A DNA stretch of 41,478 nt from positions 1 to 41,478 of the forward strand of contig NVWP01000042.1 in the NCBI GenBank assembly GCA_002733705.1. Direction: 5' to 3'. The notes beneath the pieces are model-generated. The model saw nothing but the letters and a program-made list of their open reading frames with translations. It was not told the DNA's origin and searched no databases. A program made the translations under genes and the position numbers. Positions 17,632 through 38,680 of this stretch are shown here, one piece after another. Every line of letters begins with the position of its first letter. Position 1 is the first letter of the stretch. Source of the stretch: Henriciella sp. (lineage in GTDB: Bacteria > Pseudomonadota > Alphaproteobacteria > Caulobacterales > Hyphomonadaceae).

Positions 17632-17661
17632 AAAAACGCGCCCCGGGAAGGAGCGCGTTTT
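17632..17661 (-). terminator. Intrinsic terminator of rpmB
   Basis: AAAACGCGC (17633-17641) and GCGCGTTTT (17653-17661) form a perfect 9-bp stem around an 11-base loop. Read on the minus strand the stem is followed by a run of T (GCGCGTTTTTG), so it can end rpmB transcripts about 30 bases after their stop. The T-run on the plus side makes it nominally bidirectional. Confidence 0.8.
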
Positions 17662-17689
17662 CAGAATGTTCAAAGTTCAATCGGGCGTC

Positions 17690-17983
17690 TTAGGCGCTTG
17701 CTTCAGCAGCCTGCTTCTGGATGTCCCGCTTGATCTTCAGCGCTTTCGGGGAAAGCGTGTCGTCCTTCGACTGGGCCAGATAGCCGTCGAGGCCGCCCAG
17801 CTTGTCGACCGTGCGCAGCGTCTTTGCGGCAATGCGCAGGGAAACGTTGCGGTCAAGGGCTTCAGAGCGAAGGGTGACGTTGACCAGGTTCGGCAGGAAC
17901 CGGCGCTTGGTCTTGACGTTCGAGTGGCTCACTTTGTGGCCAATAATCGGCTTGACGCCTGAAAGTTCGCATTGGCGTGCCAT
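17690..17983 (-). CDS. rpmB: 50S ribosomal protein L28
   Basis: This 97-residue basic protein has the L28 pattern: MARQCELSGVKPIIGHKVSH at the N-terminus, then SNVKTKRRFLPNLVNV, and VSLRIAAKTLRTVDKLGGLD. It binds 23S rRNA in the large subunit. The first cysteine region CELSGVKP lacks the paired zinc cysteines of Cys-plus forms, as usual in alphaproteobacteria. It is a single-gene transcript, with a recognisable sigma-70-type promoter upstream and a strong hairpin terminator downstream. The divergently read DUF3108 gene beside rpmB is a recurrent neighbour in this class. Confidence 0.97.
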   Translation of the reverse strand: MARQCELSGVKPIIGHKVSHSNVKTKRRFLPNLVNVTLRSEALDRNVSLRIAAKTLRTVDKLGGLDGYLAQSKDDTLSPKALKIKRDIQKQAAEASA

Positions 17984-18026
17984 GGGGCGCTCGCTTAAAT
18001 AGTGTTAGATCAAATCCGAAGCGGCG

Positions 18027-18055
18027 CTCATACGCGCCGGGGGCGCCGACGTCAA
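18027..18055 (-). promoter_or_regulatory. rpmB: Sigma-70-type promoter of rpmB
   Basis: On the minus strand TTGACG (18050-18055) is followed after exactly 17 bases by TATGAG (18027-18032). Start of transcription would fall near 18020, giving a leader of about 36 bases before the rpmB ATG at 17983. The -35 element and spacing are excellent and the -10 is moderate. Confidence 0.65.
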
Positions 18056-18192
18056 CCGCCACCCACAGCCCATCGCACAAGGCAGAACAGTGATATAAAT
18101 GCGGCAAAGCACAGGCGCCCCTGTTCAGCCCGGGTTGAGGTGTGCACATTTATGACCGGCGTGCCGAAATGCCCAACAAGGACCAATCCCTT

Positions 18193-19059
18193 ATGAAGAA
18201 GATGATCGCAGCCACCAGTCTCATTGCGCTGACCGCAGCAGGCGCCACCTCTGCCCAGAGCGCCTCTGGCGCCATGGCAACACCGCTGACCGATATCCGT
18301 GATGGCGAGCCGATGCGGCTCATCTATGAGGTCAAGGCGACCGCCTGGGCGCTGTTCATCCCGATCACGGGCAAGGCAAATTTCCGAATGGACCTCAAGC
18401 CCGACACCTATTCGATCAACGGGAATGTGAAGACCACCGGTCTTGCCGACATTCTGGTTAATTATGACCTTCGCCTGGCCGCCAGCGGCTATGTGAGGGA
18501 AGATCATCTCGAACCCTACGCCTATATTTCGCAGAACCGGGACGGGAAGAAGAACCGCCGCGTTGAAATGACTTATGGCAAGGATGATGTCGCCATGACC
18601 GCGACGCCGGCCTTCGGCAATCTTGGCGAACCTCCGGCCACACCTGCGCAGAAACTCGAAGCCGCCGATCCCCTCACGGCCTTTCTGGGTCATGCCTTCA
18701 CCCCGCGCCCCGCAGACGGCAATCCATGCGGCGGCCCGATGAAGATTTTCGACGGCCGCCAGCTCACCCATCTCACTTTCGAGAATGCCGGCCTCAAGGA
18801 CGTGAAGACTGCCGCCTATCGCGGCAAGGCCTATGAGTGTCACGTCTCCATGGACAAGGTGGCCGGCTATGACGCCGACGAGATCAGCGCCAAGGAAACA
18901 CTGACCGGGATCGACGGCCCGCTCCGCATGTGGATGGCCCCGCTCGACAATGGCGCCTACATGCCTGTGAAAATCCAGGCCGATACGGATGATATCGGTA
19001 CGGTCACGCTTCAGGTCTCGAAGCTGCGCTTTGAACCGCTGGATACGGAGTCAAACTAG
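18193..19059 (+). CDS. DUF3108 domain periplasmic protein
   Basis: A 288-residue exported protein. From ATG 18193 the N-terminus MKKMIAATSLIALTAAGA is a clear Sec signal with a probable cleavage after ATSAQS. The mature part contains LIYEVKATAWALFIPITGK, GLADILVNYDLRLAASGYV, then YISQNRDGKKNRRVEMTYG and DPLTAFLGHAF. This order matches the DUF3108 family. Family function is not established to my knowledge; it is beta-rich and periplasmic. AAGGA lies about ten bases before ATG 18193; ATG 18169 would put polar residues before the signal and is less likely. It is divergent from rpmB across 209 bases and followed by exonuclease III in the same direction after 72 bases. Confidence 0.82.
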   Translation: MKKMIAATSLIALTAAGATSAQSASGAMATPLTDIRDGEPMRLIYEVKATAWALFIPITGKANFRMDLKPDTYSINGNVKTTGLADILVNYDLRLAASGYVREDHLEPYAYISQNRDGKKNRRVEMTYGKDDVAMTATPAFGNLGEPPATPAQKLEAADPLTAFLGHAFTPRPADGNPCGGPMKIFDGRQLTHLTFENAGLKDVKTAAYRGKAYECHVSMDKVAGYDADEISAKETLTGIDGPLRMWMAPLDNGAYMPVKIQADTDDIGTVTLQVSKLRFEPLDTESN

Positions 19060-22556: not shown

Positions 22557-22997
22557 CTAGAATTTGAAGGCCGACCGCAGACGGATACCCGTCTCGATTT
22601 CCTCGTTCTGAAGCTGCTGCAGATTGTCGTCCAGCTCCGTCGCGCCCAGCGTCAGGACACCGCCAACACTGATGCGCGGCGTAATGCGGAACTCTGCCCC
22701 AGCGCGCATTTCTTCCTTCGCCAGTGGGGACTCTGCAGGACGCGAGGTCAGATCGACGCTCAGCTGCCACCGGTCGCCCTTCACCCAGGCGAGGCGGACT
22801 TCCTTGCTGGGCGCGCCTTGCCAGATCGGCGTGGCGTCGGATGGGGAGTTGAGCGTAAACTGGCGGTACCAGTCCGGCTCTGCCTCTTCCGTCTCGGAAA
22901 CGGTTGGCGGCGACAGCTCAATAGGCTCGGATTGCGCCGCGGCCGGAAGGGCCGTGAACGCACCGAGCGCCGCAAGAGCTGTCAAAGAATATTTCAT
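22557..22997 (-). CDS. NtrZ-like periplasmic protein
   Basis: A 146-residue secreted protein. MKYSLTALAALGAFTALP is a signal peptide with likely cleavage after PAAAQS. The mature protein ends with an outer-membrane-like or beta-rich segment: WQLSVDLTSRPAESPLAKEE, then MRAGAEFRITPRISVGGVLT, and GIRLRSAFKF at the C-terminus. This order resembles the NtrZ family of Caulobacterales, in which NtrZ is a small periplasmic inhibitor of the sensor kinase NtrY. That assignment rests on remembered family pattern, and the ntrYX genes are not in the window. AAGGTGG precedes the ATG. It follows the porin gene on the same strand after 53 bases, so both may be expressed together. It converges with the thiE-like gene after 12 bases. 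Confidence 0.6.
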   Translation of the reverse strand: MKYSLTALAALGAFTALPAAAQSEPIELSPPTVSETEEAEPDWYRQFTLNSPSDATPIWQGAPSKEVRLAWVKGDRWQLSVDLTSRPAESPLAKEEMRAGAEFRITPRISVGGVLTLGATELDDNLQQLQNEEIETGIRLRSAFKF

Positions 22998-23050: not shown

Positions 23051-24208
23051 TTAATTCCTGCTCATCCGGAAAAAATCACTGCTGAGTGTGATTTCTACCA
23101 CAATGCCCGCACCGGACCTTTCGCCTGCCGGAGTATCCAATTTCTCGTCCTGATAAGAAAGCGCGACGTCAAAACCGTCGGAAAGTTCCCGCGCGGCTGC
23201 GATATTGAAGCCTTTTGAGGAAAGGCGGGCCAGATTGTCATCGGCTTCTCCATAGCCAAGCGAGACCTCCGTCTCCCCGAAATCCCGCGCGATGCCGGCC
23301 TCCCAGGCTTCATAATCACCGCCCTGAAACCCGTTATCGCTGCCCAGCCAGGAAGCGCCGACGGAAAATTCGCTAAACTCGACATTCGCCCCCGCCGACC
23401 AGGTCTCCATCCGGCCGCGTGCGCCTGGCGCCGGACTGTCGATCTTGGCGCTGGACCAGCCCAGCGACGCCTCGATCCGCGTGCCGGAGCTGCGCAAAGT
23501 GCGGGAAAGATTGGCAGCAACCTCGAAGACATCGCTGAGGCCTGGCTGTTCGCGAAACTGCGACAGGCTCCGGTCAAGATGGCGCCCATCGCCATCCGGG
23601 GTGAAGGACGCCCCCGCGCGCAGCCCGAGGATGCGCGGCGTCGCATAGCTGAGCTTTACCGACGGCCCAGTCACGTCGTGATTGGTCCGGTTTATCTTCA
23701 GGCCCGTCGGATCGAGATACGGGTTGGAAACACCTGAAAAGACAAGGCTGGTCGGACCGCCTTCGTGAAATCGTGCCGCAACGCCCCGGTCCTTGCCAAG
23801 GCGCAGCTCGCCATAGCCGCCATCGGCGACAAGATAGGCTGTCTCCAGACGGCCCCGCGCGCCGGTCTCCTCGTCAGGGGCCAGGCCTGACAAGCCGCTA
23901 TATCCGCCCGCCAGGGGAGCGCCCGTGTCGAACCGGCCTGCAAATCCCGGCCGGTCCGGATGGTCGCGCTGGCCGCGCAAGGTCAGCCTGGCGCCCAGCA
24001 CTGTCCCGTTCTTCAGGATGGTTTCCGCCTCGGTGTCCAGCGTGATCTCATAGAGTATGTCCTCCGCGTCGCTGGCGTCTTCATCGAGCAGGCCGATCAC
24101 GGTCGCCGCTTCGATCTCCGATTCAATATCGAGGGGCAGGGCGGCCGCAGGCAGGGCCAGCAGGGAGGTCCCGCCAAACAGGGCAGTGATGAGGGCGGTT
24201 CGTGTCAT
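23051..24208 (-). CDS. Outer-membrane porin
   Basis: A 385-residue protein from ATG 24208 with signal peptide MTRTALITALFGGTSLLALP. The mature part is a beta-barrel pattern of alternating residues with many Gly, Asp and aromatic residues: EITLDTEAETILKNGTVLG, GRLETAYLVADGGYGELRLG, then VSLGYGEADDN and GFDVALSYQDEKLD. The GELRLGKDRG segment is characteristic of Gram-negative general porins (PF13609-like). The end IVVEITLSSDFFRMSRN lacks the usual terminal Phe, which is unusual for a barrel recognised by BamA and worth checking. The solute is unknown. It reads toward the NtrZ-like gene; the 116 bases up to the divergent DUF3576 gene hold its promoter. The in-frame extension to 24247 precedes the signal peptide and was discarded. 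Confidence 0.8.
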   Translation of the reverse strand: MTRTALITALFGGTSLLALPAAALPLDIESEIEAATVIGLLDEDASDAEDILYEITLDTEAETILKNGTVLGARLTLRGQRDHPDRPGFAGRFDTGAPLAGGYSGLSGLAPDEETGARGRLETAYLVADGGYGELRLGKDRGVAARFHEGGPTSLVFSGVSNPYLDPTGLKINRTNHDVTGPSVKLSYATPRILGLRAGASFTPDGDGRHLDRSLSQFREQPGLSDVFEVAANLSRTLRSSGTRIEASLGWSSAKIDSPAPGARGRMETWSAGANVEFSEFSVGASWLGSDNGFQGGDYEAWEAGIARDFGETEVSLGYGEADDNLARLSSKGFNIAAARELSDGFDVALSYQDEKLDTPAGERSGAGIVVEITLSSDFFRMSRN

Positions 24209-24324
24209 GGCAATCGGGTCCGGTCGGCTGGTATTGGTCGAGCACATATCAGCACTGGCCCGACGGGTCGCAGATGATATACAGGTCGGCGAACAAAGAA
24301 GATATTGCCGACAGGATTCTCGAT

Positions 24325-27871: not shown

Positions 27872-28911
27872 TCCTGAAAGCCGGACAGGTCTCCAGCCGT
27901 TTAGGAAAGTCCGACACATCTCCATGGTGCGCGCTTGTTTTTGGCGACGATGATGGCGTTGTGAATGATCTCGCAGATGAAATTGCGGACGTATGGACCA
28001 ACAAGGCCAGCGGAGCGGCACGTCAGATCACGCTGGATGACGATGATATACGCCGCGAGCCGCACCTTCTGTCAGACAGGATTGAAACCGGCTCGCTTCT
28101 TGGAGAGATCGAAATCGTACGGGTGCGAACCTCGGGCGAGAAGATATCCAAACCGGTTCTCGACCTCATAGCCCGCGCCGATCAGATGTCGGCTGGTTTT
28201 GCCAACCGTCTTCTCGTCCTCAATGGCAGCCTGAACAAACGCTCCAAACTTCGAACGACGATAGAACAGTCGAAGTCGGCCGCGGCGATCCAGGTCTATT
28301 CGGATACCACTGAAAGTCTGAAATCCATTGTGCGGGACAAGCTCGCCGCCTTCGATGTGGAGATTGCCCCTGAGGCGCTGGAGGATTTCGTCGGTCTCCT
28401 GCCGGGGCATAGAGGACTTGCCAATCAGGAAACCGAAAAGCTTGCCCTCTATGGCAAGGGGCTCGGCCGGCCACTCTCGGTCAGTGACGTGCGCGAGGTT
28501 TGCCGGACCGATGCCGAGGACAGCGTCCGCGATCTGGCCCAGGCCGCCCTCAGCGGCGAGCCAAACCGCACCCAGGCAGAATATGAACGCGTCATCGAAA
28601 GCGGCACGACGACAATCAGCGTGCTTCGCGTGCTTGAGATGGAGATCCGGCGCCTCCTCCAGGCGCGCGGTCTACTCGGAACGGGCGGTGATATCGGCAA
28701 AAGACTGCGCCCGCCGGTCTGGGGCTCCGAATGGCCCGGTTTCAGAGCCCGGCTCGATCTCTGGTCGGCGACCTCGTTGACACGGCTGCTGTCTGCTGTC
28801 CACGACATGGAAATGCAGGCGAAGACAGCCGGCGCGGCAAGCGATCCGGCCCTGCGGCTGCTTCTACTTGATATCGTGCGGTCTGCGGCCGTTCGCCGAA
28901 AGCAGGTCTAG
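27868..28911 (+). CDS. holA: DNA polymerase III delta subunit
   Basis: A 347-residue clamp-loader subunit that opens the beta sliding clamp. It begins [13 protein letters not shown], then ALVFGDDDGVVNDLADEI in place of the usual GxDxxL pattern, LLSDRIETGSLLGEIEIVRV, FANRLLVLNGSLNKRSKLR, and the middle domain LEDFVGLLPGHRGLANQETE. The C-terminal collar has ISVLRVLEMEIRRLLQARG. No ATPase motif is expected, and none is present. It overlaps lptE by ATGA. Its TAG stop shares the tetramer CTAG with the stop of convergent parB. Length agrees with the family (about 340). Confidence 0.93.
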   Translation: MILKAGQVSSRLGKSDTSPWCALVFGDDDGVVNDLADEIADVWTNKASGAARQITLDDDDIRREPHLLSDRIETGSLLGEIEIVRVRTSGEKISKPVLDLIARADQMSAGFANRLLVLNGSLNKRSKLRTTIEQSKSAAAIQVYSDTTESLKSIVRDKLAAFDVEIAPEALEDFVGLLPGHRGLANQETEKLALYGKGLGRPLSVSDVREVCRTDAEDSVRDLAQAALSGEPNRTQAEYERVIESGTTTISVLRVLEMEIRRLLQARGLLGTGGDIGKRLRPPVWGSEWPGFRARLDLWSATSLTRLLSAVHDMEMQAKTAGAASDPALRLLLLDIVRSAAVRRKQV

Positions 28912-29813
28912 CGCTTCGCAGTCAGCCGGCGACACAGGTCGTCCAGCTGCTCTAGGTCACTGTATTTAATACGGATTTCGCCCTTATCGCCTTTGTGGCG
29001 GATATCGACATCAAGGCCAAGCGCCCGGCCGAGGTCGGCCTCAAGCGCCTCTGTATCGACATCCTTCTCCGCCCGGCGTACCCGGCCGGCGACGGCCTCG
29101 ACGCTCCCATCATCCTTGGCCGAGCGTGAAAGTTTCTCGACCTCGCGCACGCTGAGCCCCTTGGTCACCGCCATCGCGATGACCGCGTCAGGATCCGGTG
29201 CCCCCAGCGCCGCGCGCGCATGGCCGGCAGAAATGCGGCCTTCGCGCAGATGGTTGCGCGCAACCTCTGAAAGGTTGAGCAATCTCAATGTATTAGCGAT
29301 GTGCGCCCGGCTTTTTCCAACGCTTTCGGCAAGGCCTTCCTGCGTGCGGCCAAAACGCTTCATCAGCGCGCCATAGGCCTCGGCCTCTTCAATCGGGTTG
29401 AGATCTGTCCGCTGGACGTTCTCGATGATACCGATCTCGAGAAGCTCCAGCTCATCCATCTGGCGGATTGTGGCCGGAATCTCGGTCAGCCCCGCCTGTT
29501 TTGCCGCCCGCCAGCGGCGTTCACCGGCGACGATCTGATACTTCCCGCCGCTCTTCGGGTCCGGGCGCACCAGAATAGACTGAAGCACACCCTTCGCCCG
29601 GATGGATTCGGCCAGCTCCGCAAGGTCGGCCTCCGCGAAATAGCGGCGCGGCTGCTGCGGGTTTGGACGAATATCGCTGATCGCGATGGTCGACGCGTCG
29701 GTCTTTGCCTCCGGGTCGCGGCTTTCATAGCTGGAGGCCCCTTCGACCTCACCGATCAAGGCGGAGAGGCCGCGGCCCAGGCGGCTCGGCTTCTGCTTCG
29801 GATCACCAGACAT
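28908..29813 (-). CDS. parB: Chromosome-partitioning protein ParB
   Basis: A 301-residue CTP-switch DNA clamp that loads at parS and spreads to form the partition complex. The N-terminal domain has KPSRLGRGLSALIGE (the ParA-stimulating basic start), SDIRPNPQQPRRYFAE, the CTP-binding VAGERRWRAAKQAGL (about residues 96-110) and ELLEIGIIENVQRTDLNPIE. The parS-binding helix-turn-helix is GLAESVGKSRAHIANTLRLL (about residues 155-175). The C-terminal dimer domain ends LEQLDDLCRRLT. The start ATG overlaps the parA stop (TGATG). Four parS palindromes lie 1.4-4.5 kb upstream of its start, inside rsmG, mnmG and mnmE. Confidence 0.97.
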   Translation of the reverse strand: MSGDPKQKPSRLGRGLSALIGEVEGASSYESRDPEAKTDASTIAISDIRPNPQQPRRYFAEADLAELAESIRAKGVLQSILVRPDPKSGGKYQIVAGERRWRAAKQAGLTEIPATIRQMDELELLEIGIIENVQRTDLNPIEEAEAYGALMKRFGRTQEGLAESVGKSRAHIANTLRLLNLSEVARNHLREGRISAGHARAALGAPDPDAVIAMAVTKGLSVREVEKLSRSAKDDGSVEAVAGRVRRAEKDVDTEALEADLGRALGLDVDIRHKGDKGEIRIKYSDLEQLDDLCRRLTAKR

Positions 29814-30634
29814 CAGGCTGGCTCCATCGCGCGGGCGCGCTCTCTCTGCAGCACCTCAGAAGCGAGCCGGATATAAGCCTCACTCCCGGGACAACGATAA
29901 TCATAGAGCAGGGCGGGTTTGCCGAAACTCGGCGCCTCGGACAAACGTACGTTGCGCGGGATCACGGTTTTATAGACCTTTGAACCCAGAACCTCACGTA
30001 CCTCATCAGCCACCTGGTCGGACAGGTTGTTGCGCCGGTCATACATGGTGAGCACGATGCCCTGAATCTCAAGGTCCGGATTGAGACCGGAGCGCACAAC
30101 TTCCACCGTCCGCAGCAACTGGCTAAGCCCCTCAAGTGCCAGGAACTCACACTGGAGTGGCACAAGCAGCGCATCCGCGGCTGTCATGGCGTTGATCGTC
30201 AGCGAGGAAAGCGAAGGCGGGCAGTCAATCAGGATGAAATCATACCGCTTGTCCGGGTCATTGGCGTACTTTTCCACATGGCCACGAATAGCATCCCGCA
30301 AACGATAGGAGCGCCGCGCCTCATCAGCGAGTTCGGTCTCCACACCAGAGAGGTTTTCGTCCCCAGGTACGATTTCAAGACGCGGGACGAGAGTTGGAAG
30401 GATCGCCTCTTCAAGCGGCAAGGCGTCGACAACCACGTCATAGCTGGTCAGCTTCCGGTCGGCCCGGCTGATGCCAAGTCCGGTGGAGGCGTTGCCCTGC
30501 GCATCGAAATCCACAACAAGGACGCGGCGGCCCACAGCGGCGAGCGCCGTGCCGAGATTGATTGACGTTGTGGTCTTGCCCACGCCGCCTTTCTGGTTCG
30601 CGATAGCCAGGATCCGGGTACCAGTCTTAGACAC
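29813..30634 (-). CDS. parA: Chromosome-partitioning ATPase ParA
   Basis: A 273-residue Walker-type ATPase that positions ParB-parS complexes and pulls the duplicated origin toward the new pole. Deviant Walker A is NQKGGVGKTTTSINLG (residues 13-28), followed by VDFDAQGNASTGLG, the Walker B-like FILIDCPPSLSSL, and GLSQLLRTVEVVRSGL. A GTG start at 30634 is chosen because AGGAGG lies six bases upstream and the family N-terminus follows at once; the longer frame to 30697 is not conserved. This start overlaps the rsmG end by eight bases. It lies in the rsmG-parA-parB order standard for chromosomes of this class. Confidence 0.96.
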   Translation of the reverse strand: MSKTGTRILAIANQKGGVGKTTTSINLGTALAAVGRRVLVVDFDAQGNASTGLGISRADRKLTSYDVVVDALPLEEAILPTLVPRLEIVPGDENLSGVETELADEARRSYRLRDAIRGHVEKYANDPDKRYDFILIDCPPSLSSLTINAMTAADALLVPLQCEFLALEGLSQLLRTVEVVRSGLNPDLEIQGIVLTMYDRRNNLSDQVADEVREVLGSKVYKTVIPRNVRLSEAPSFGKPALLYDYRCPGSEAYIRLASEVLQRERARAMEPA

Positions 30635-31244
30635 GGTGGGCCTCCTCGATCTTGAGTATGATCCCGGCCGGGTTGGTTCGACTCGGGATCGCTTCATGCC
30701 TCAAAGTCCAGTAATCTGAGGCATCCGTCAATTCTTCCTGCCACCGTTCGCCCTTGAAAAACAGCCCCGTCGCGCCACGTGAAATCCACGGATATGCGTA
30801 ACTAAGGAGACGGGGCAGGGGGGCGAGCGCCCTCGCTGTAATAAAATCAACGCGTTCCGGAGGCGCAGACTCGATCCGCGCGTTGATGACCTTTGCCGGG
30901 AGCTTCAGATCGGCGATGACGGTCTGGAGAAATGCACACTTTTTTGCGGTCGACTCCACCATGGTCACGTCGCCGCCACGCGTCGCTGCCTCACAAGCGA
31001 GCACGAGACCGGGAAACCCGGCCCCAGATCCGATATCGACAATCCTCTTTTCCGGCCCCGTCAGCGCAATCATTTGCGCGCTGTCGATGATGTGGCGCGT
31101 CCAGATCTGCTCCATCTCACGCGGCCCGATCAAATTCATCCGCTGGCGCCACTCATCCAGTAGCGCGACAAGCCGCTCGAGCCGCTCGAATGTTTCACGT
31201 GAAACACCCAGCTGGCTGAGTTCGTTTTCAATATCTTTCTGCAT
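30627..31244 (-). CDS. rsmG: 16S rRNA (guanine527-N7)-methyltransferase
   Basis: A 205-residue SAM-dependent enzyme modifying G527 of 16S rRNA. Family motifs are LLDEWRQRMNLIGPREMEQI, then RHIIDSAQMIAL, VDIGSGAGFPGLVLACE (SAM loop), and TMVESTAKKCAFLQTVIADL followed by DFITARALAPL. The mnmG stop and this ATG overlap (TGATG); a GTG one codon earlier is also possible. Near the N-terminus the peptide VSRETF is encoded by a perfect parS palindrome (31191-31206). The gene connects the tRNA-modification genes with parAB and is probably part of the same transcript. Confidence 0.96.
   Translation of the reverse strand: MQKDIENELSQLGVSRETFERLERLVALLDEWRQRMNLIGPREMEQIWTRHIIDSAQMIALTGPEKRIVDIGSGAGFPGLVLACEAATRGGDVTMVESTAKKCAFLQTVIADLKLPAKVINARIESAPPERVDFITARALAPLPRLLSYAYPWISRGATGLFFKGERWQEELTDASDYWTLRHEAIPSRTNPAGIILKIEEAHRV
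31191..31206. promoter_or_regulatory. parS site 1 (inside rsmG)
   Basis: The perfect 16-bp palindrome TGTTTCACGTGAAACA, the universal ParB-binding consensus, lies within the rsmG coding sequence. In the rsmG frame it encodes part of VSRETF. Confidence 0.95.
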
Positions 31245-33118
31245 CACCCAACCGAACGCAGCTTCTGGCTACGCTTTACATGAGAGAGAAGAGCGATGAG
31301 CGCGCCCGGAGTCACGCCTTCAATGCGCGAGGCCTGGCCAATCGTCGAGGGACGGATGGTTTCCAGCTTGGAGCGGGCCTCATTGGAAAGCCCGCCGACC
31401 CGCGCATAATCGAAGTCCTTCGGAATCTCGACTGCTTCGTCACGGCGTAAGGCCTCAACGTCGGCGCGCTGGCGTTCGATATAGCCCGAATAGATCGCTT
31501 CGATCCCAAGCTGGGTCTTTGTCGGCTGATCCAGATCTTGAAGTTCGGGAAAGGCGGTCTCGATCTCAGCAAAACCAATATCTGGGTATGCCAGATAATC
31601 CCAGGCGCTCCGCTTCTGGCCGTCCTGATTGATCTTCCAGCCCTGTTTAGCCGCCTCGTTTGGCGTGAGGGCAAGCGACTGCAGAACATCGCGCCCGCGA
31701 GAGAGCTTCTTATGTTTCACGTGAAACATCTCTTTTCTGGACCCATGCACAAGTCCAGTCTCGATACCCTTCGGCGTAAGCCTCTGGTCGGCATTGTCGG
31801 CGCGTAGGGCCAGACGGTATTCGGCGCGCGAGGTAAACATCCGATAGGGCTCGGTGACTCCATGTGTTGTCAGATCATCGACGAGCACCCCGATATAGGC
31901 CTCAGCACGATCGAACTCGACGGGTGAATGGCCCGCAGACGCCCGGGCCGCATTCATGCCAGCAACAAGCCCCTGAGCGCCCGCCTCTTCATAGCCCGTT
32001 GTCCCATTAATCTGGCCGGCCAGATAAAGCCCGCCGAGTGCCTTGACTTCCAGGCTGCGGTAGAGCGCGCGCGGATCAACATAATCATACTCAATGGCAT
32101 AACCGGGCTGGATGATCCGGACATCTTCCAGACCCTCAATTGTGCGGATAAATGCCTCCTGCACATCTACGGGCAGGGAGGTCGAAATGCCGTTCGGGTA
32201 GACCGTGTCATCGTCCAGCCCCTCGGGCTCCAGAAAGATCTGGTGGCGATCCTTGTCCGCGAACCGGTGAACCTTGTCCTCGATGGACGGGCAATAGCGT
32301 GGACCCTTACCGGCAATCGCACCGGAATAGACCGCCGACTTGTCGAGGTTCTCCGCGATGATGCGGTGGGTCTCTGCATTCGTATAGGTGATCCCGCACG
32401 CGACCTGGGGCACATCAACGCTTTCGTTCAGAAACGAAAAGGGCACCGGGCGCTCATCTGCAGGCTGTTTTTCCAGCCGGTCCCAGGCAATTGTCTTGCC
32501 GTCGAGGCGGGCAGGCGTGCCGGTCTTCAGCCGCCCCATCGGCAGATCAAGCGCATAAAGCCTCTCGGCAAGACCGATCGCCGGCGCTTCACCAACGCGG
32601 CCGGCTTCGACTCTTTCGGTGCCGCGATGAATGATGCCGCGCAGAAAAGTGCCCGTTGTGATGACAACACAACGCGAAGACCAGCTCTCGCCCGAAAGTC
32701 CAACGACACCGGCAACATGACCGTCCTGAACAAGAAGATCGTCAACGCCATCTTCAATGATGGTCAGGTTCGGGTAGTCGGCTAGCTCCGCCTGCATCGC
32801 TTCGCGATAGAGTTTGCGATCAATCTGCGCACGCGGACCCCAGACGGCGGGACCCTTCGACCTGTTCAGAAGCCTGTACTGGATGCCGGCCTTGTCAGCG
32901 ATCCGGCCCATGAGGCCATCGAGCGCGTCAATCTCACGTACAAGGTGACCTTTTCCCAGGCCGCCAATAGCCGGGTTGCACGACATCTCGCCGATGGTCG
33001 CCTTCTTGTGGGTGACGAGCGCGGTTCTTGCGCCCACTCGCGCGGACGCCGCCGCAGCCTCGCAACCGGCATGGCCGCCGCCAACCACAATGACATCGAA
33101 ATCTTTTGCTGAGGGCAT
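31244..33118 (-). CDS. mnmG: tRNA uridine-5-carboxymethylaminomethyl modification enzyme MnmG
   Basis: A 624-residue FAD/NADH enzyme that works with MnmE to install cmnm5U34 in tRNAs. It begins with the dinucleotide-binding [19 protein letters not shown] and [20 protein letters not shown]. The middle has [27 protein letters not shown] and [14 protein letters not shown], and [20 protein letters not shown] lies in the second half. The C-terminus [19 protein letters not shown] followed by [20 protein letters not shown] is diagnostic. A parS palindrome (31713-31728) is embedded and encodes MFHVKH, an addition seen in alphaproteobacterial MnmG. mnmE, its obligate partner, lies upstream on the same strand after an 83-base gap. 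Confidence 0.97.
31713..31728. promoter_or_regulatory. parS site 2 (inside mnmG)
   Basis: The perfect palindrome TGTTTCACGTGAAACA lies within mnmG, 522 bases from site 1. In the mnmG frame it encodes part of MFHVKH. Confidence 0.95.
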
Positions 33119-33201: not shown

Positions 33202-34524
33202 TCATTTCCCGATGCAGAAGCTGGAGAAGACTTCGCCCAGAATGTCCTCCACACCGATCTGCCCGACCAGGCCGGAAAGCTTCTGGGCCGCCAGACGCAC
33301 ATCCTCAGATACCAGCTCAGCGCCAAACCCCGCTGCAAGATTTTGTCTGGCCTGTTTCACGTGAAACAATGCCGTCTCAAGGGCCAGCCTGTGCCGGCGA
33401 CGCGTAATGACCGGGGCAGGGCGCCCCGACGTAAATGCCCTGATGCGCCTTTCAATATCATTCTCGAGGGCTTCAATCCCTTCGCCTGTCCGCGCCGAAA
33501 CAAAGATTGTATTGCCGGACGCATCCGCAGGGCGGGTCTGATCCACCTTGTTCAGAACGATAATATCACCCTCATCCGCCTCATGATCGTAAGGTGTATC
33601 TGACGAAGACACACGGATACGGATATCCGAGGCCGAGGCCCGCTCCAGAGCACGCCGAACGCCCTCTGCTTCGACGATATCCCGCGTTTCACGAAGTCCA
33701 GCGGTATCCGCAATCCAGACGACCTGTCCCGCGATCTTCACGCGGACTTCCACCACATCGCGGGTCGTGCCAGGGATGTCGGTAACAATCGCTGCGTCCC
33801 GTCTGGCAAGACGATTGAGGATCGAGGACTTGCCGGCATTTGGCGGCCCGATAATCGCAATACGAAATCCATCCTGGATCCGTTCGCCCAGCTGATCGTC
33901 GTCCAGCGCTTTCGCAAGCGCCAATTCGAGCATATCAAGTTTCACGGCGACCGGACCGTCGGACTCGTCTGGCGCATCCTCCTCATCCGGGAAGTCTATG
34001 CTCGCCTCCAGAAGCGCCATTGCTTCCAGCAAATCACCACGCCAGCTCTGATAGGATTGCGAGAGACTTCCGCCCAGCTGCTCGAGGGCGAGGGATTTCT
34101 GGGCCCGCGTCTCGGCATCGATCAGATCCGCAACGCCTTCAGCCTCCACGAGATCCAGACGGCCATTCTCAAAGGCCCGCCGCGTGAACTCACCCGGCTC
34201 AGCAAGGCGTACACCATCAAACGCGCAGAGCGTGTCGAGCACATGCTCGATAACCGCAGCGCCGCCATGAAGGTAAAGCTCGGCTGTATCTTCCCCTGTA
34301 TACGAATTAGGCCCCGGCATGAACACACCGAGGCCCTCATCTATTGTTTCACGTGACACATCAAGGAAGCGGCCAAACACCATCTTCCGCGGCGCGGGAA
34401 CGCCATGCTCAAAAATCGCCGCGCAGATATCCCGCACGCCCGGCCCACTGATCCGCACAATTGCGATAGCAGATGGCGGCGGGCCAGAGGCCAGCGCGCA
34501 GATCGTATCTTGCGCGCCAGACAT
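33202..34524 (-). CDS. mnmE: tRNA modification GTPase MnmE
   Basis: A 440-residue partner of MnmG. The N-terminal formyl-THF-binding domain has IVRISGPGVRDICAAIFEHG, NSYTGEDTAELYLHGG and EPGEFTRRAFENGRLDLVEA. The inserted G domain has GPPNAGKSSILNRLARRDAA (G1, about residue 225), DIPGTTRDVVEV (G2), IADTAGLRETRDIVEAEG (G3) and VLNKVD (G4). The C-terminus FCIGK carries the catalytic C-x-G-K motif. It starts two bases after the rho stop. Two parS sites lie inside: one perfect (33353-33368, encoding LFHVKQ) and one with a single mismatch (34345-34360, encoding VSRETI). Confidence 0.97.
   Translation of the reverse strand: MSGAQDTICALASGPPPSAIAIVRISGPGVRDICAAIFEHGVPAPRKMVFGRFLDVSRETIDEGLGVFMPGPNSYTGEDTAELYLHGGAAVIEHVLDTLCAFDGVRLAEPGEFTRRAFENGRLDLVEAEGVADLIDAETRAQKSLALEQLGGSLSQSYQSWRGDLLEAMALLEASIDFPDEEDAPDESDGPVAVKLDMLELALAKALDDDQLGERIQDGFRIAIIGPPNAGKSSILNRLARRDAAIVTDIPGTTRDVVEVRVKIAGQVVWIADTAGLRETRDIVEAEGVRRALERASASDIRIRVSSSDTPYDHEADEGDIIVLNKVDQTRPADASGNTIFVSARTGEGIEALENDIERRIRAFTSGRPAPVITRRRHRLALETALFHVKQARQNLAAGFGAELVSEDVRLAAQKLSGLVGQIGVEDILGEVFSSFCIGK
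33353..33368. promoter_or_regulatory. parS site 3 (inside mnmE)
   Basis: The perfect palindrome TGTTTCACGTGAAACA lies near the 3' end of mnmE. In the mnmE frame it encodes part of LFHVKQ. Confidence 0.95.
34345..34360. promoter_or_regulatory. parS site 4, one mismatch (inside mnmE)
   Basis: TGTTTCACGTGACACA differs from the consensus by one base in the outer part of the right arm (GACACA for GAAACA). It lies near the 5' end of mnmE and encodes part of VSRETI. It is probably a weaker ParB site. Confidence 0.75.
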
Positions 34525-36439: not shown

Positions 36440-37489
36440 TTACTGGCTGGCTTTCCAGTCGCGCACAGTCTTCACTGCGCGCTCGACATTGGCAATCGGC
36501 GTCTCGGGTTTGACGCCATGGCCAAGATTAAAAATGTGCGGCCTGTTCTTGTAGGCTTCCAGTATGTCAACGATCCGGCGCTCCATGGCCTCACCGCCCG
36601 TCATCAGCAGCAACGGATCCAGATGCCCTTGAACCGGCATGGTTGCCGGCAGTTCGCGGTTCACAAAGCTCGGCAGCGCGGCGGTATCGAGCCCGACAGC
36701 ACTTACCCCGGTCTGGGCGGCATAGTCTGGCAGCTGAACACCCGCGCCGCGCGGAAACCCGATGAGCGGGACGGTCACGCCGAGCTCTCTTAAGCGCTTC
36801 ACCAGTTTCTGGTTCGGCCGGATGATGATCTGTTCGAAAATATCGTTGGGCAGACCCTCGGCCCAGGAGTCGAACATCATCAGCGCCTCGGCGCCGGCCT
36901 CTGCCTGCGCAGCCATATAATGGGCCGTCGCCTCGACAAGATCATCCAGAAGCAGGTCGAGCTCGGCCGGATACTTGTGCGCCCAGATCCTTGCGGTTGC
37001 CTTGTCGGTGCCGCCGCGGCCCTCAATGGCATAGAGCGCCACGGTCCAGGGCGCGCCTGCAAAACCGATGAGTGTCGTTTCCGATGGCAGGCGCGATTTT
37101 ACCCGTGAGACCGTCTCATAAACAGGCGAGAGACGCTCCACCACGGTCTGCACAGGCACCTCATTGAGCCGCCCGCCGACATCGACCGCTTCCACGATAG
37201 GGCCGACACCTTTCTCGAACCGCACACCCCGGCCAAGGGCATCAAGGATCAGGAGGATGTCCGCAAACAGGATGGCACCATCCATCCCATAGCGCTCGAT
37301 CGGCTGAAGCGTCGCCTCGCAGGCCAGAGACGGCGTATAACAGAAGTCCAGAAAGTTCTTCGCCCGCCCGCGCAGCTCCATATATTCCGGCAGATGCCGA
37401 CCAGCCTGTCTCATCATCCAGAGGGGCACAGGGTCCTGACGTTTGCCATGCAGAACGTTCAGAAGTGGTTTTTGCGGGGCAGGGGCCAT
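36440..37489 (-). CDS. hemE: Uroporphyrinogen decarboxylase
   Basis: A 349-residue cytoplasmic enzyme converting uroporphyrinogen III to coproporphyrinogen III in haem synthesis. Signatures are PVPLWMMRQAGRHLPEYMEL, then CYTPSLACEATLQPIERYGM, DGAILFADILLILDALG (active-site Asp), LIGFAGAPWTVALYAIEGRG, LMMFDSWAEGLP and the C-terminal FNLGHGVKPETPI. In Caulobacter hemE flanks the chromosomal origin and its promoters overlap CtrA sites; here the origin-like region likewise lies directly upstream (37490-37849). The start ATG 37489 gives MAPAPQKPLLNVLHG, as expected for the family. Confidence 0.97.
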   Translation of the reverse strand: MAPAPQKPLLNVLHGKRQDPVPLWMMRQAGRHLPEYMELRGRAKNFLDFCYTPSLACEATLQPIERYGMDGAILFADILLILDALGRGVRFEKGVGPIVEAVDVGGRLNEVPVQTVVERLSPVYETVSRVKSRLPSETTLIGFAGAPWTVALYAIEGRGGTDKATARIWAHKYPAELDLLLDDLVEATAHYMAAQAEAGAEALMMFDSWAEGLPNDIFEQIIIRPNQKLVKRLRELGVTVPLIGFPRGAGVQLPDYAAQTGVSAVGLDTAALPSFVNRELPATMPVQGHLDPLLLMTGGEAMERRIVDILEAYKNRPHIFNLGHGVKPETPIANVERAVKTVRDWKASQ

Positions 37490-37541
37490 CTGGTCCTCTT
37501 TAATCCTTCAAGCATCTAATGCGCTCTTATCATTACTAAGC

Positions 37542-37559
37542 GCTGGATAAGGTGGACAA
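37542..37559 (-). promoter_or_regulatory. Two adjacent DnaA-box-like sites (hemE side)
   Basis: On the minus strand TTATCCAGC (37542-37550) and TTGTCCACC (37551-37559) abut each other, each with two mismatches to TTATCCACA. Tandem weak boxes of this sort are usual in alphaproteobacterial origins. Confidence 0.5.
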
Positions 37560-37586
37560 ACAGTCCCAGGCAGGTTTGTCGACAGG

Positions 37587-37595
37587 TTTTCCACA
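37587..37595 (+). promoter_or_regulatory. DnaA box, one mismatch
   Basis: TTTTCCACA matches the TTATCCACA consensus with one mismatch. It is flanked by a weaker TTGTCGACA at 37576-37584 (two mismatches). Confidence 0.6.
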
Positions 37596-37620
37596 GCGCA
37601 TCCATAGGCGGGCTGTTCTG

Positions 37621-37635
37621 TTAACCATTCGTCAA
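37621..37635. promoter_or_regulatory. CtrA-type box A (one mismatch)
   Basis: TTAA-N7-TCAA differs from TTAA-N7-TTAA by one base. It lies exactly 31 bases (about three helical turns) before box B, on the same face of the DNA. Confidence 0.55.
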
Positions 37636-37651
37636 CGAATTGGAATCGCCG

Positions 37652-37666
37652 TTAATTCTTCGTTAA
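37652..37666. promoter_or_regulatory. CtrA-type box B (perfect)
   Basis: A perfect TTAA-N7-TTAA(CC) in the AT-rich part of the origin region. In Caulobacter, phosphorylated CtrA at such sites blocks initiation and also affects the hemE promoter; here this is inferred from motif and position. Confidence 0.7.
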
Positions 37667-37728
37667 CCATTTGCGAAATTCGCTGGTCTGGAACACCCGG
37701 TGAATCCGGCCTGTGAGTCCTTTGGGAA

Positions 37729-37737
37729 TGTGGACAA
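37729..37737 (-). promoter_or_regulatory. DnaA box, one mismatch
   Basis: Minus-strand TTGTCCACA matches TTATCCACA with one mismatch. On the PPSR side it is accompanied by plus-strand TCTTCCACA (37776-37784, two mismatches) and TTGTCCATT (37789-37797, three mismatches). Confidence 0.6.
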
Positions 37738-37849
37738 GACGTGCATGGCTGCGGATGAAATTCTGTGCCCACAGGTCTTCCACAGGGGTTGTCCATTTTG
37801 TGAAGACACGGCAGGGTCCAGCCGGTTTCAACAGATTGGCGGGGAGCGG

Positions 37850-38680
37850 ATGCGCCCGAGTATATATTTCAATGTCCATCTCGTCTCCGATTCGACGGGG
37901 GAGACATTGAATGCCGTGATGCGCGCCGCCGCTGCGCAGTTCGAGAATGTGACCCCGCTGGAGCACAATTACTATCTCGTCCGGTCCGATCGCCAGCTGG
38001 AACGGGTCATGCGCGATATCGAGGCGGCGCCCGGCGTTGTCTGGTTCACCGTGTCGGATGAGGCCCTGCGCCTCAAGCTCGAACAGTTCTGCCGCGCCCG
38101 TCACATTCCCACACTGGCCGTGCTCGACCCCTCCATTCATATGCTGAGCCGCCATCTCGGCGTGACGGCAAGCGACCGTGTCGCCGGACAGCACGCGCTC
38201 AACGCCGAATATTTCGAGCGGATCGAGGCGATCAATTTCGCGCTTGCCCATGATGACGGCCAGAACCTTCAGGGCCTTGCGGACGCCGATGTCATCCTTC
38301 TCGGGGTCAGCCGGACATCGAAGACCCCGACCTGCGTCTATCTCGCCAATCGCGGCGTCAAGGCCGGCAATATCCCGCTCGTGCCAGGCATGGCCATGCC
38401 ATCCGTCCTCGATTCGATAGATCCCGTGACCGGGCCGATGATTATCGGCCTCAAGATCGGCGTGGAGCGCCTCGTCCAGATCCGCAGCCAGCGGCTCATG
38501 GCGCTCAATGAGAATTCGGTAACCGACTATACCGACGAAGAGGCCGTGCGCGCAGAAGTGACCGAGGCGAGCCGCCTTTTCCAGCGGCGCAAATGGCCGA
38601 TCATCGATGTCTCCCGCCGCAGCGTCGAGGAAACCGCGGCAGCCATCCTCAACAAGCTCAATCAGAGGCATAGCCAGTGA
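37850..38680 (+). CDS. Pyruvate,phosphate dikinase regulatory-type kinase/pyrophosphorylase (DUF299)
   Basis: A 276-residue member of the bifunctional PPDK/PEP-synthase regulatory family, which phosphorylates and dephosphorylates a Thr of the dikinase using ADP and Pi. Family motifs are FNVHLVSDSTGETLNAVMRA at the N-terminus, a P-loop-like LGVSRTSKTPTCVYLANRG (about residues 151-169), AGNIPLVPGM, and YTDEEAVRAEVTEASRLF. ATG 37850 is chosen because GGGGAGCGG immediately precedes it and the conserved sequence starts at residue 4. The frame is open to 37700, but that extension overlaps DnaA boxes and is not family-like. This is the gene called RP001 beside Caulobacter Cori. The target dikinase is not in the window. 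Confidence 0.9.
   Translation: MRPSIYFNVHLVSDSTGETLNAVMRAAAAQFENVTPLEHNYYLVRSDRQLERVMRDIEAAPGVVWFTVSDEALRLKLEQFCRARHIPTLAVLDPSIHMLSRHLGVTASDRVAGQHALNAEYFERIEAINFALAHDDGQNLQGLADADVILLGVSRTSKTPTCVYLANRGVKAGNIPLVPGMAMPSVLDSIDPVTGPMIIGLKIGVERLVQIRSQRLMALNENSVTDYTDEEAVRAEVTEASRLFQRRKWPIIDVSRRSVEETAAAILNKLNQRHSQ

Follow-up and report, generated by a model that had tools for sequence, protein, structure and literature searches.

The 360-base intergenic region between hemE and the gene for the pyruvate phosphate dikinase/PEP synthase regulator (PPSR), at positions 37490-37849, is in all probability (about 0.95, judged from sequence) the chromosomal replication origin (oriC) of a marine Henriciella-like bacterium. 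The assignment draws on the density of motifs in this gap, on runs conserved in 32 aligned rows, and on a skew switch and parS sites in two congeners. The window, i.e., the whole stretch of 41,478 nucleotides analysed, is a complete contig (C16) of a draft genome of 156 contigs. When its PPSR protein is compared with 10 named loci, it is 86-95% identical to six labelled Henriciella, four of these reaching 93-95%, and the host is Henriciella-like, near Henriciella within the Hyphomonadaceae. A sequence-only reading of this DNA had proposed an origin between hemE and PPSR, and that proposal is supported by the skew of congeners, by the placement of parS and parAB, by a kept gene neighbourhood and by conserved DnaA and CtrA sites. 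Since origins occupy the same place in Hyphomonas, Caulobacter, and Rickettsia, the finding is an expected one; the place itself is already known from relatives, and what is added here is a map at the level of single bases together with a candidate unwinding block.

The gap is flanked on the left by hemE for uroporphyrinogen decarboxylase (36440-37489, minus strand; TIGR01464, 350 bits, above cut-off) and on the right by the PPSR gene (37850-38680, plus strand; NF003742, 316 bits, above cut-off), and genes do diverge from it on both sides, as had been read. The genes parB, parA, rsmG, mnmG, mnmE, rho, hemJ, and hemE lead up to it, all on the minus strand, and PPSR, a Maf-like gene, aroE, coaE, and dnaQ follow, all on the plus strand. 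Matches for hemE, PPSR, aroE, coaE, dnaQ, rho, mnmE, and mnmG lie above curated cut-offs, and hemJ and the Maf-like gene score under the cut-offs of their best models. That this is the sole gene-free stretch above 300 bases looks right, as the other ORF-sparse places examined carry genes for a redoxin, ribosomal protein L28, a DUF3576 protein, and a ThiE-like protein. For one stretch, 17650-18200, the matches listed in a plasmid search were only rpmB (L28) or unannotated stretches. Neither an Rfam RNA at gathering score nor a tRNA was found in the window.

The neighbourhood is widely kept. PPSR is present in 59 of 60 relatives searched (60 of 61 if the genome of the window is counted), and hemE adjoins it in 57 of the 58 relatives read (29/29 and 28/29), a set that leaves out G050, where the PPSR match lies at a contig end. 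In locus L109 no hemE was found within about 800 bases upstream of PPSR, and among three distant named loci, L010 and L011 show hemE and L009 does not. According to PMC1914354, in the part available, the origin of Caulobacter lies between hemE and the PPSR (COG1806/DUF299) gene and measures 404 bp, and Rickettsia origins of 383-396 bp lie between the same genes. The origin of Rickettsia prowazekii, 384 bp between hemE and COG1806, is alike in place, but its AT content is 82.55% (PMC1914354) as compared with 49% here. Closest to the present case is Hyphomonas neptunium of the same family, for which the available portions of two studies report that replication starts close to hemE by marker frequency, that parAB is about 7 kb away with two parS sites near (PMC6650430), and that CtrA binds next to the origin (PMC7200025). 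It differs from the present case in that its skew is described there as unclear, whereas the skew is clear in two congeners of the window, and in having two parS sites instead of four. A literature search for a replication origin of Henriciella returned a single match, which to judge by its listing concerned casposons.

Because the genome of the window is split into 156 contigs, GC skew was followed in two single-contig congeners, G017 and G028. The sequence-only reading had named a skew switch at this place as its own check, and both congeners show the switch as predicted. In 20-kb samples of G028, skew is negative to the left of the locus in 8 of 10 and positive to the right in 10 of 10, with a mean right-minus-left difference of 0.049 that none of 2000 permutations equalled. 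In G017, where the sample spanning the locus was omitted, the corresponding counts are 8 of 9 and 6 of 10, with a difference of 0.038 (p 0.0075); skew is noisy in this genome, four of the ten right-hand samples being negative. When contiguous sequence of 100 kb on either side was used, the minimum of the cumulative skew came out about 1 kb away from the start of PPSR in G028 and about 10 kb away in G017. In the window itself, the 3.6 kb to the right of the gap still have a slightly negative skew, a stretch too short to judge.

Partitioning elements lie close by. The window contains four plus-strand parS sites when up to three mismatches are allowed (0.06 expected), of which three are perfect, at the 5' end of the rsmG ORF (31191-31206), inside mnmG (31713-31728), and inside mnmE (33353-33368), and one, also inside mnmE (34345-34360), has one mismatch. 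The sites found in the congeners with at most one mismatch, three in G028 and four in G017, are without exception 3-7 kb away from the locus. The genes parB (28908-29813; Pfam ParB_N, HTH_ParB, ParB_C) and parA (29813-30697; AAA_31) occupy 28908-30697 on the minus strand, at a distance of about 7 kb from the gap.

Within the gap, seven near matches to the DnaA box TTATCCACA with at most two mismatches were found, three on the plus and four on the minus strand, where at least six in both orientations had been claimed. Their density averages 0.67 per 360 bases, with a maximum of 4 elsewhere in the contig, and no sliding window of 360 bases outside the gap reaches seven (4112 scanned in all). As already observed from the letters, all boxes are imperfect: two have one mismatch and none is perfect. 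At the hemE side, two minus-strand boxes with two mismatches each abut one another, TTATCCAGC (37542-37550), 2 bases from a trio-like block, and TTGTCCACC (37551-37559), whose GTGGA core is widely kept in relatives. On the plus strand follow a weak box, TTGTCGACA (37576-37584, two mismatches), and TTTTCCACA (37587-37595, one mismatch), which overlaps the conserved run TTCCACAG (37589-37596). Towards PPSR lie, on the minus strand, TTGTCCACA (37729-37737, one mismatch), with a conserved TGTG part, and a weak match, TCATCCGCA (37750-37758, two mismatches), for which conservation is not clear. A plus-strand array of three co-directional boxes (37765-37797) comprises GTGCCCACA, TCTTCCACA, and TTGTCCATT with three, two, and three mismatches, respectively; at the place of its first member, GTGCCCACA, some relatives carry TTATCCACA itself.

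Conservation was read from an alignment of 32 rows, consisting of the window, 28 congeners, and a single representative from each of three further genera; it does not include the remaining four family members or any other family. As the rows are related, the conservation counts are not independent. Against a diverged background, the runs GTGGAMAA (37552-37559), TTCCACAG, and the TGTG within the box at 37729-37737 stand out, and on the right side CCACA (37769-37773) and TCCACAGGGSTTGTC (37779-37793) are conserved, the latter stretch, TCCACAGGGGTTGTC in the window, being the longest conserved run on the PPSR side. A further conserved element is the plus-strand GGAACA at 37690-37695, of which GAACA (37691-37695) is present in 29 of 32 rows and the full hexamer in 21. 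Its beginning resembles a -35 element of ECF sigma factors; a -10 part to go with it was not seen.

Two sites of the CtrA type, TTAA-N7-TTAA, occur in the 41,478 bases at one mismatch or less, and both are inside the gap. Site 1, TTAACCATTCGTCAA (37621-37635, plus strand), has one mismatch and site 2, TTAATTCTTCGTTAA (37652-37666, plus strand), is perfect, so that the two boxes named by the sequence-only reading turn out to be the only ones of this quality in the contig. Of the 32 rows, 30 have site 1 and 27 have site 2 with no more than one mismatch; both are kept in 26, and six rows are without one or both. By number alone, two sites per contig are not unusual, since chance predicts 1.43 and two are reached in 40 of 100 shuffles. 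That both fall inside the gap is unusual; shuffles of the gap give an expectation of 0.07 and reach two in 1 of 100 cases. Between site 1 and the DnaA box nearest to it lie 25 bases, and between site 2 and the box that follows towards PPSR lie 62, spacings at which CtrA would part two groups of DnaA boxes instead of covering boxes. The genome of the window has a CtrA match (model NF045991, 401 bits against a cut-off of 350) and also carries dnaA, gcrA, and a CcrM-like gene with a RAMA domain. We take this domain to be part of CcrM; a control run found it in Caulobacter alone of 14 genomes.

Two descriptions of the gap need qualification. It is richer in AT than the contig (49% versus 38%), yet the AT-rich core that had been described does not stand out sharply: nine positions elsewhere are at least as rich in AT as its richest 40 bases (37499-37538, 67.5%). 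Nor is there support for the region being unusually compact, as had been thought. Its 360 bases are ordinary beside 344-361 in the 32 rows, 338-565 in 26 further relatives (gene starts in relatives being extrapolated from the proteins of the window), and 404 in Caulobacter. A perfect IHF site was not found in the window, and one-mismatch IHF matches are as frequent there as expected (10 versus 10.25). Two of them are in the gap (0.32 expected; two reached in 19 of 500 shuffles), where they are retained with at most one mismatch in 8 and 1 of 32 rows, i.e., not in most relatives.

The methylation motif GANTC occurs three times in the gap (1.4 expected), which is nothing special, since 14 of 100 shuffles reach three. 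In nine congeners (L026, L027, L028, L030, L031, L032, L033, L035, and L036), however, 6-11 sites per gap of about 350 bases were counted where about 2 are expected, numbers reached in 0-2 of 100 shuffles, and five to six of these sites fall in the stretch that separates CtrA site 2 from the right array. Five others (L029, L034, L037, L038, and L040) have 4-5 sites. High counts in L020 (7) and L025 (6), both nearer to the window, and in L041 (10) from another genus, none reached in 100 shuffles, indicate that the enrichment is not confined to one subgroup.

Two other locations or roles have to be weighed against an origin in this gap. An origin next to dnaA is a common arrangement outside the Alphaproteobacteria, and this generality is what speaks for looking there. 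In the two congeners dnaA is 396 kb (G017) and 547 kb (G028) from the locus, and the nearest skew samples on both sides of it have the same sign, the values of G017 lying within about two standard errors of zero; we consider an origin beside dnaA extremely improbable. The gap could instead do no more than drive hemE and PPSR from divergent promoters, DnaA and CtrA serving as transcription factors and the true origin lying elsewhere nearby. A conserved block at the left edge has the position expected of a promoter, 37-51 bases upstream of the start of hemE, and DnaA is also a transcription regulator in Caulobacter (PMC4468827, in the part available). Against this, a simple consensus scan of 37400-37950 found no promoter of the sigma-70 type (and no terminator), the density of DnaA boxes in the gap is unmatched in the contig, skew and parS point to the gap locus in two congeners, and in Hyphomonas the peak of marker frequency is near hemE (PMC6650430, available portion). 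A purely regulatory gap thus seems very unlikely, and the roles of promoter and origin are not exclusive.

Within the putative origin, the left block deserves particular attention. This conserved block, CTTATCATTACTAAG (37526-37540, plus strand), is singled out as a candidate unwinding element by its conservation and its trio pattern; in the form CTTATCATTAYTAAG it lies at the hemE-side edge beside the two tandem weak DnaA boxes, and 27 of 32 rows depart from the window there by no more than two bases. In the DnaA-box/spacer/DnaA-trio (BUS) layout, a box with at most two mismatches is followed, after a spacer of 0-16 bases, by three or more triplets whose middle base is A (PMC8287927, in the part available), and DnaA filaments load 3'->5' from the boxes (PMC6669920, likewise). 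Here the tandem boxes TTGTCCACC and TTATCCAGC are followed on the other strand, after 11 and 2 bases, by the four triplets AAT, CAT, TAC, and TAT, as the plus strand is read 3'->5' from the adjacent box (37539 to 37528), an arrangement that agrees with the loose form of the rule. The pattern is weak by itself, since 11 box sites in the 41-kb window pass the loose rule with three triplets; only three pass with four, two of them being the tandem pair. At the place of the left block 25 of 32 rows pass, and L020, L024, L037, L040, L041, L103, and L104 fail. In comparison with the BUS of Bacillus subtilis oriC (PMC8287927, PMC6669920, and PMC10721633, as far as these sources were available), two co-directional boxes, a short spacer, and middle-A triplets read 3'->5' are alike, whereas here both boxes carry two mismatches, the triplets are not GAT, and dnaA does not adjoin. 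The exact DnaA-trio consensus 3'-GAT-5' is thus absent from the four triplets of the window; the first triplet is GAT in L022, L023, and L039.

Overall, the left block is somewhat more plausibly than not the unwinding element of a BUS layout, with triplets that fit the consensus partly. It might alternatively be the site of some regulator or a part of the hemE promoter, to which we would give a little under an even chance. The block is near-palindromic (CTTA-N7-TAAG), and its triplets match the DnaA-trio consensus loosely, both of which suit this alternative. The short, fixed distance to tandem co-directional boxes is what a BUS requires, four triplets within reach are found at just three box sites in 41 kb, two of them at this block, and the trio pattern holds across most rows. 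Moreover, two of five loci of family f3 (L117 and L119) carry GAT triplets on this edge, adjoining a GGTGGATAG box. A minus-strand reading of the block as the trios TAG, TAA, TGA, and TAA was rejected, since filaments load from boxes in the 3'->5' direction and the boxes are situated on the opposite side of the block. In L103 (456-468), from another genus of the family, GATGATGATTAAG stands in place of the left block, a run of identical triplets that are not the DnaA-trio consensus in the right direction.

The place, the skew switch in relatives, the parS cluster, the enrichment and conservation of motifs, and the presence of dnaA, ctrA, gcrA, and RAMA-domain genes were computed here; we infer binding by DnaA and CtrA, the point of unwinding, and the mode of blocking by CtrA. 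In the proposed course of events, DnaA-ATP would bind two groups of weak boxes, at 37542-37595 and 37729-37797, and a DnaA filament would run leftwards from the tandem boxes (37542-37559) onto the AT-rich block at 37526-37540, and there the duplex would open, at the end of the gap that faces hemE. Bound to the pair of sites in the middle of the gap (37621-37666), phosphorylated CtrA might prevent the two DnaA groups from becoming joined or filled and would in this way block initiation in cells of the type that does not replicate. Once the origin has fired, ParB bound to the parS cluster, at a distance of 3-7 kb, would move the new origin.

The label 'Caulobacter-type', given to this origin by the sequence-only reading, fits in part. 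With Cori of Caulobacter crescentus it shares the place between hemE and PPSR, weak DnaA boxes, CtrA sites of the form TTAA-N7-TTAA, and a similar size, so that place and kind of parts agree. Two CtrA sites are found here as compared with five in Cori, and they lie between groups of DnaA boxes, whereas in Cori the G-boxes are close to or overlapped by CtrA sites (PMC4468827, in the part available). That Cori-specific design, in which G-boxes (the T to G variant) are associated with CtrA sites, is not seen in the gap, nor is the TGATCCACA box present there; the presence of an IHF site is uncertain, and the gap is of ordinary size.

More speculatively, and with clear reservations, Henriciella and near genera may possess an origin design of their own. 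At its hemE edge, two weak DnaA boxes in tandem would drive an unwinding element that has diverged but is strongly kept; its PPSR edge would have the far array, with three boxes in the same direction, and the CtrA pair would stand between the two groups. With this design, CtrA would act by keeping two DnaA groups apart and not by covering boxes as in Cori. In part of the genus, CcrM (GANTC) sites clustered next to the far array would add methylation control. The portions available of published Hyphomonas work place the origin only close to hemE, and the present map, with 32 aligned sequences behind it, resolves a Hyphomonadaceae origin to single bases and supplies clear test sites for unwinding and for the blocking of an origin by CtrA. 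That a CtrA pair has kept its position throughout most of a genus other than Caulobacter also bears on the question whether control of origins by CtrA arose more than once.

Two further observations concern the contig and its assembly. In the window, a gene of the NtrZ family (22557-22997) adjoins a gene for a Porin_4-type porin (23051-24247) on the same strand. In the same assembly, pieces of another contig, C97 (L139:1-7529 of G000), match the rho/mnmG/parA region of the window at 68-77% DNA identity; this contig carries three parS-like sites and most likely entered the assembly as a contaminant, its source being a related species.
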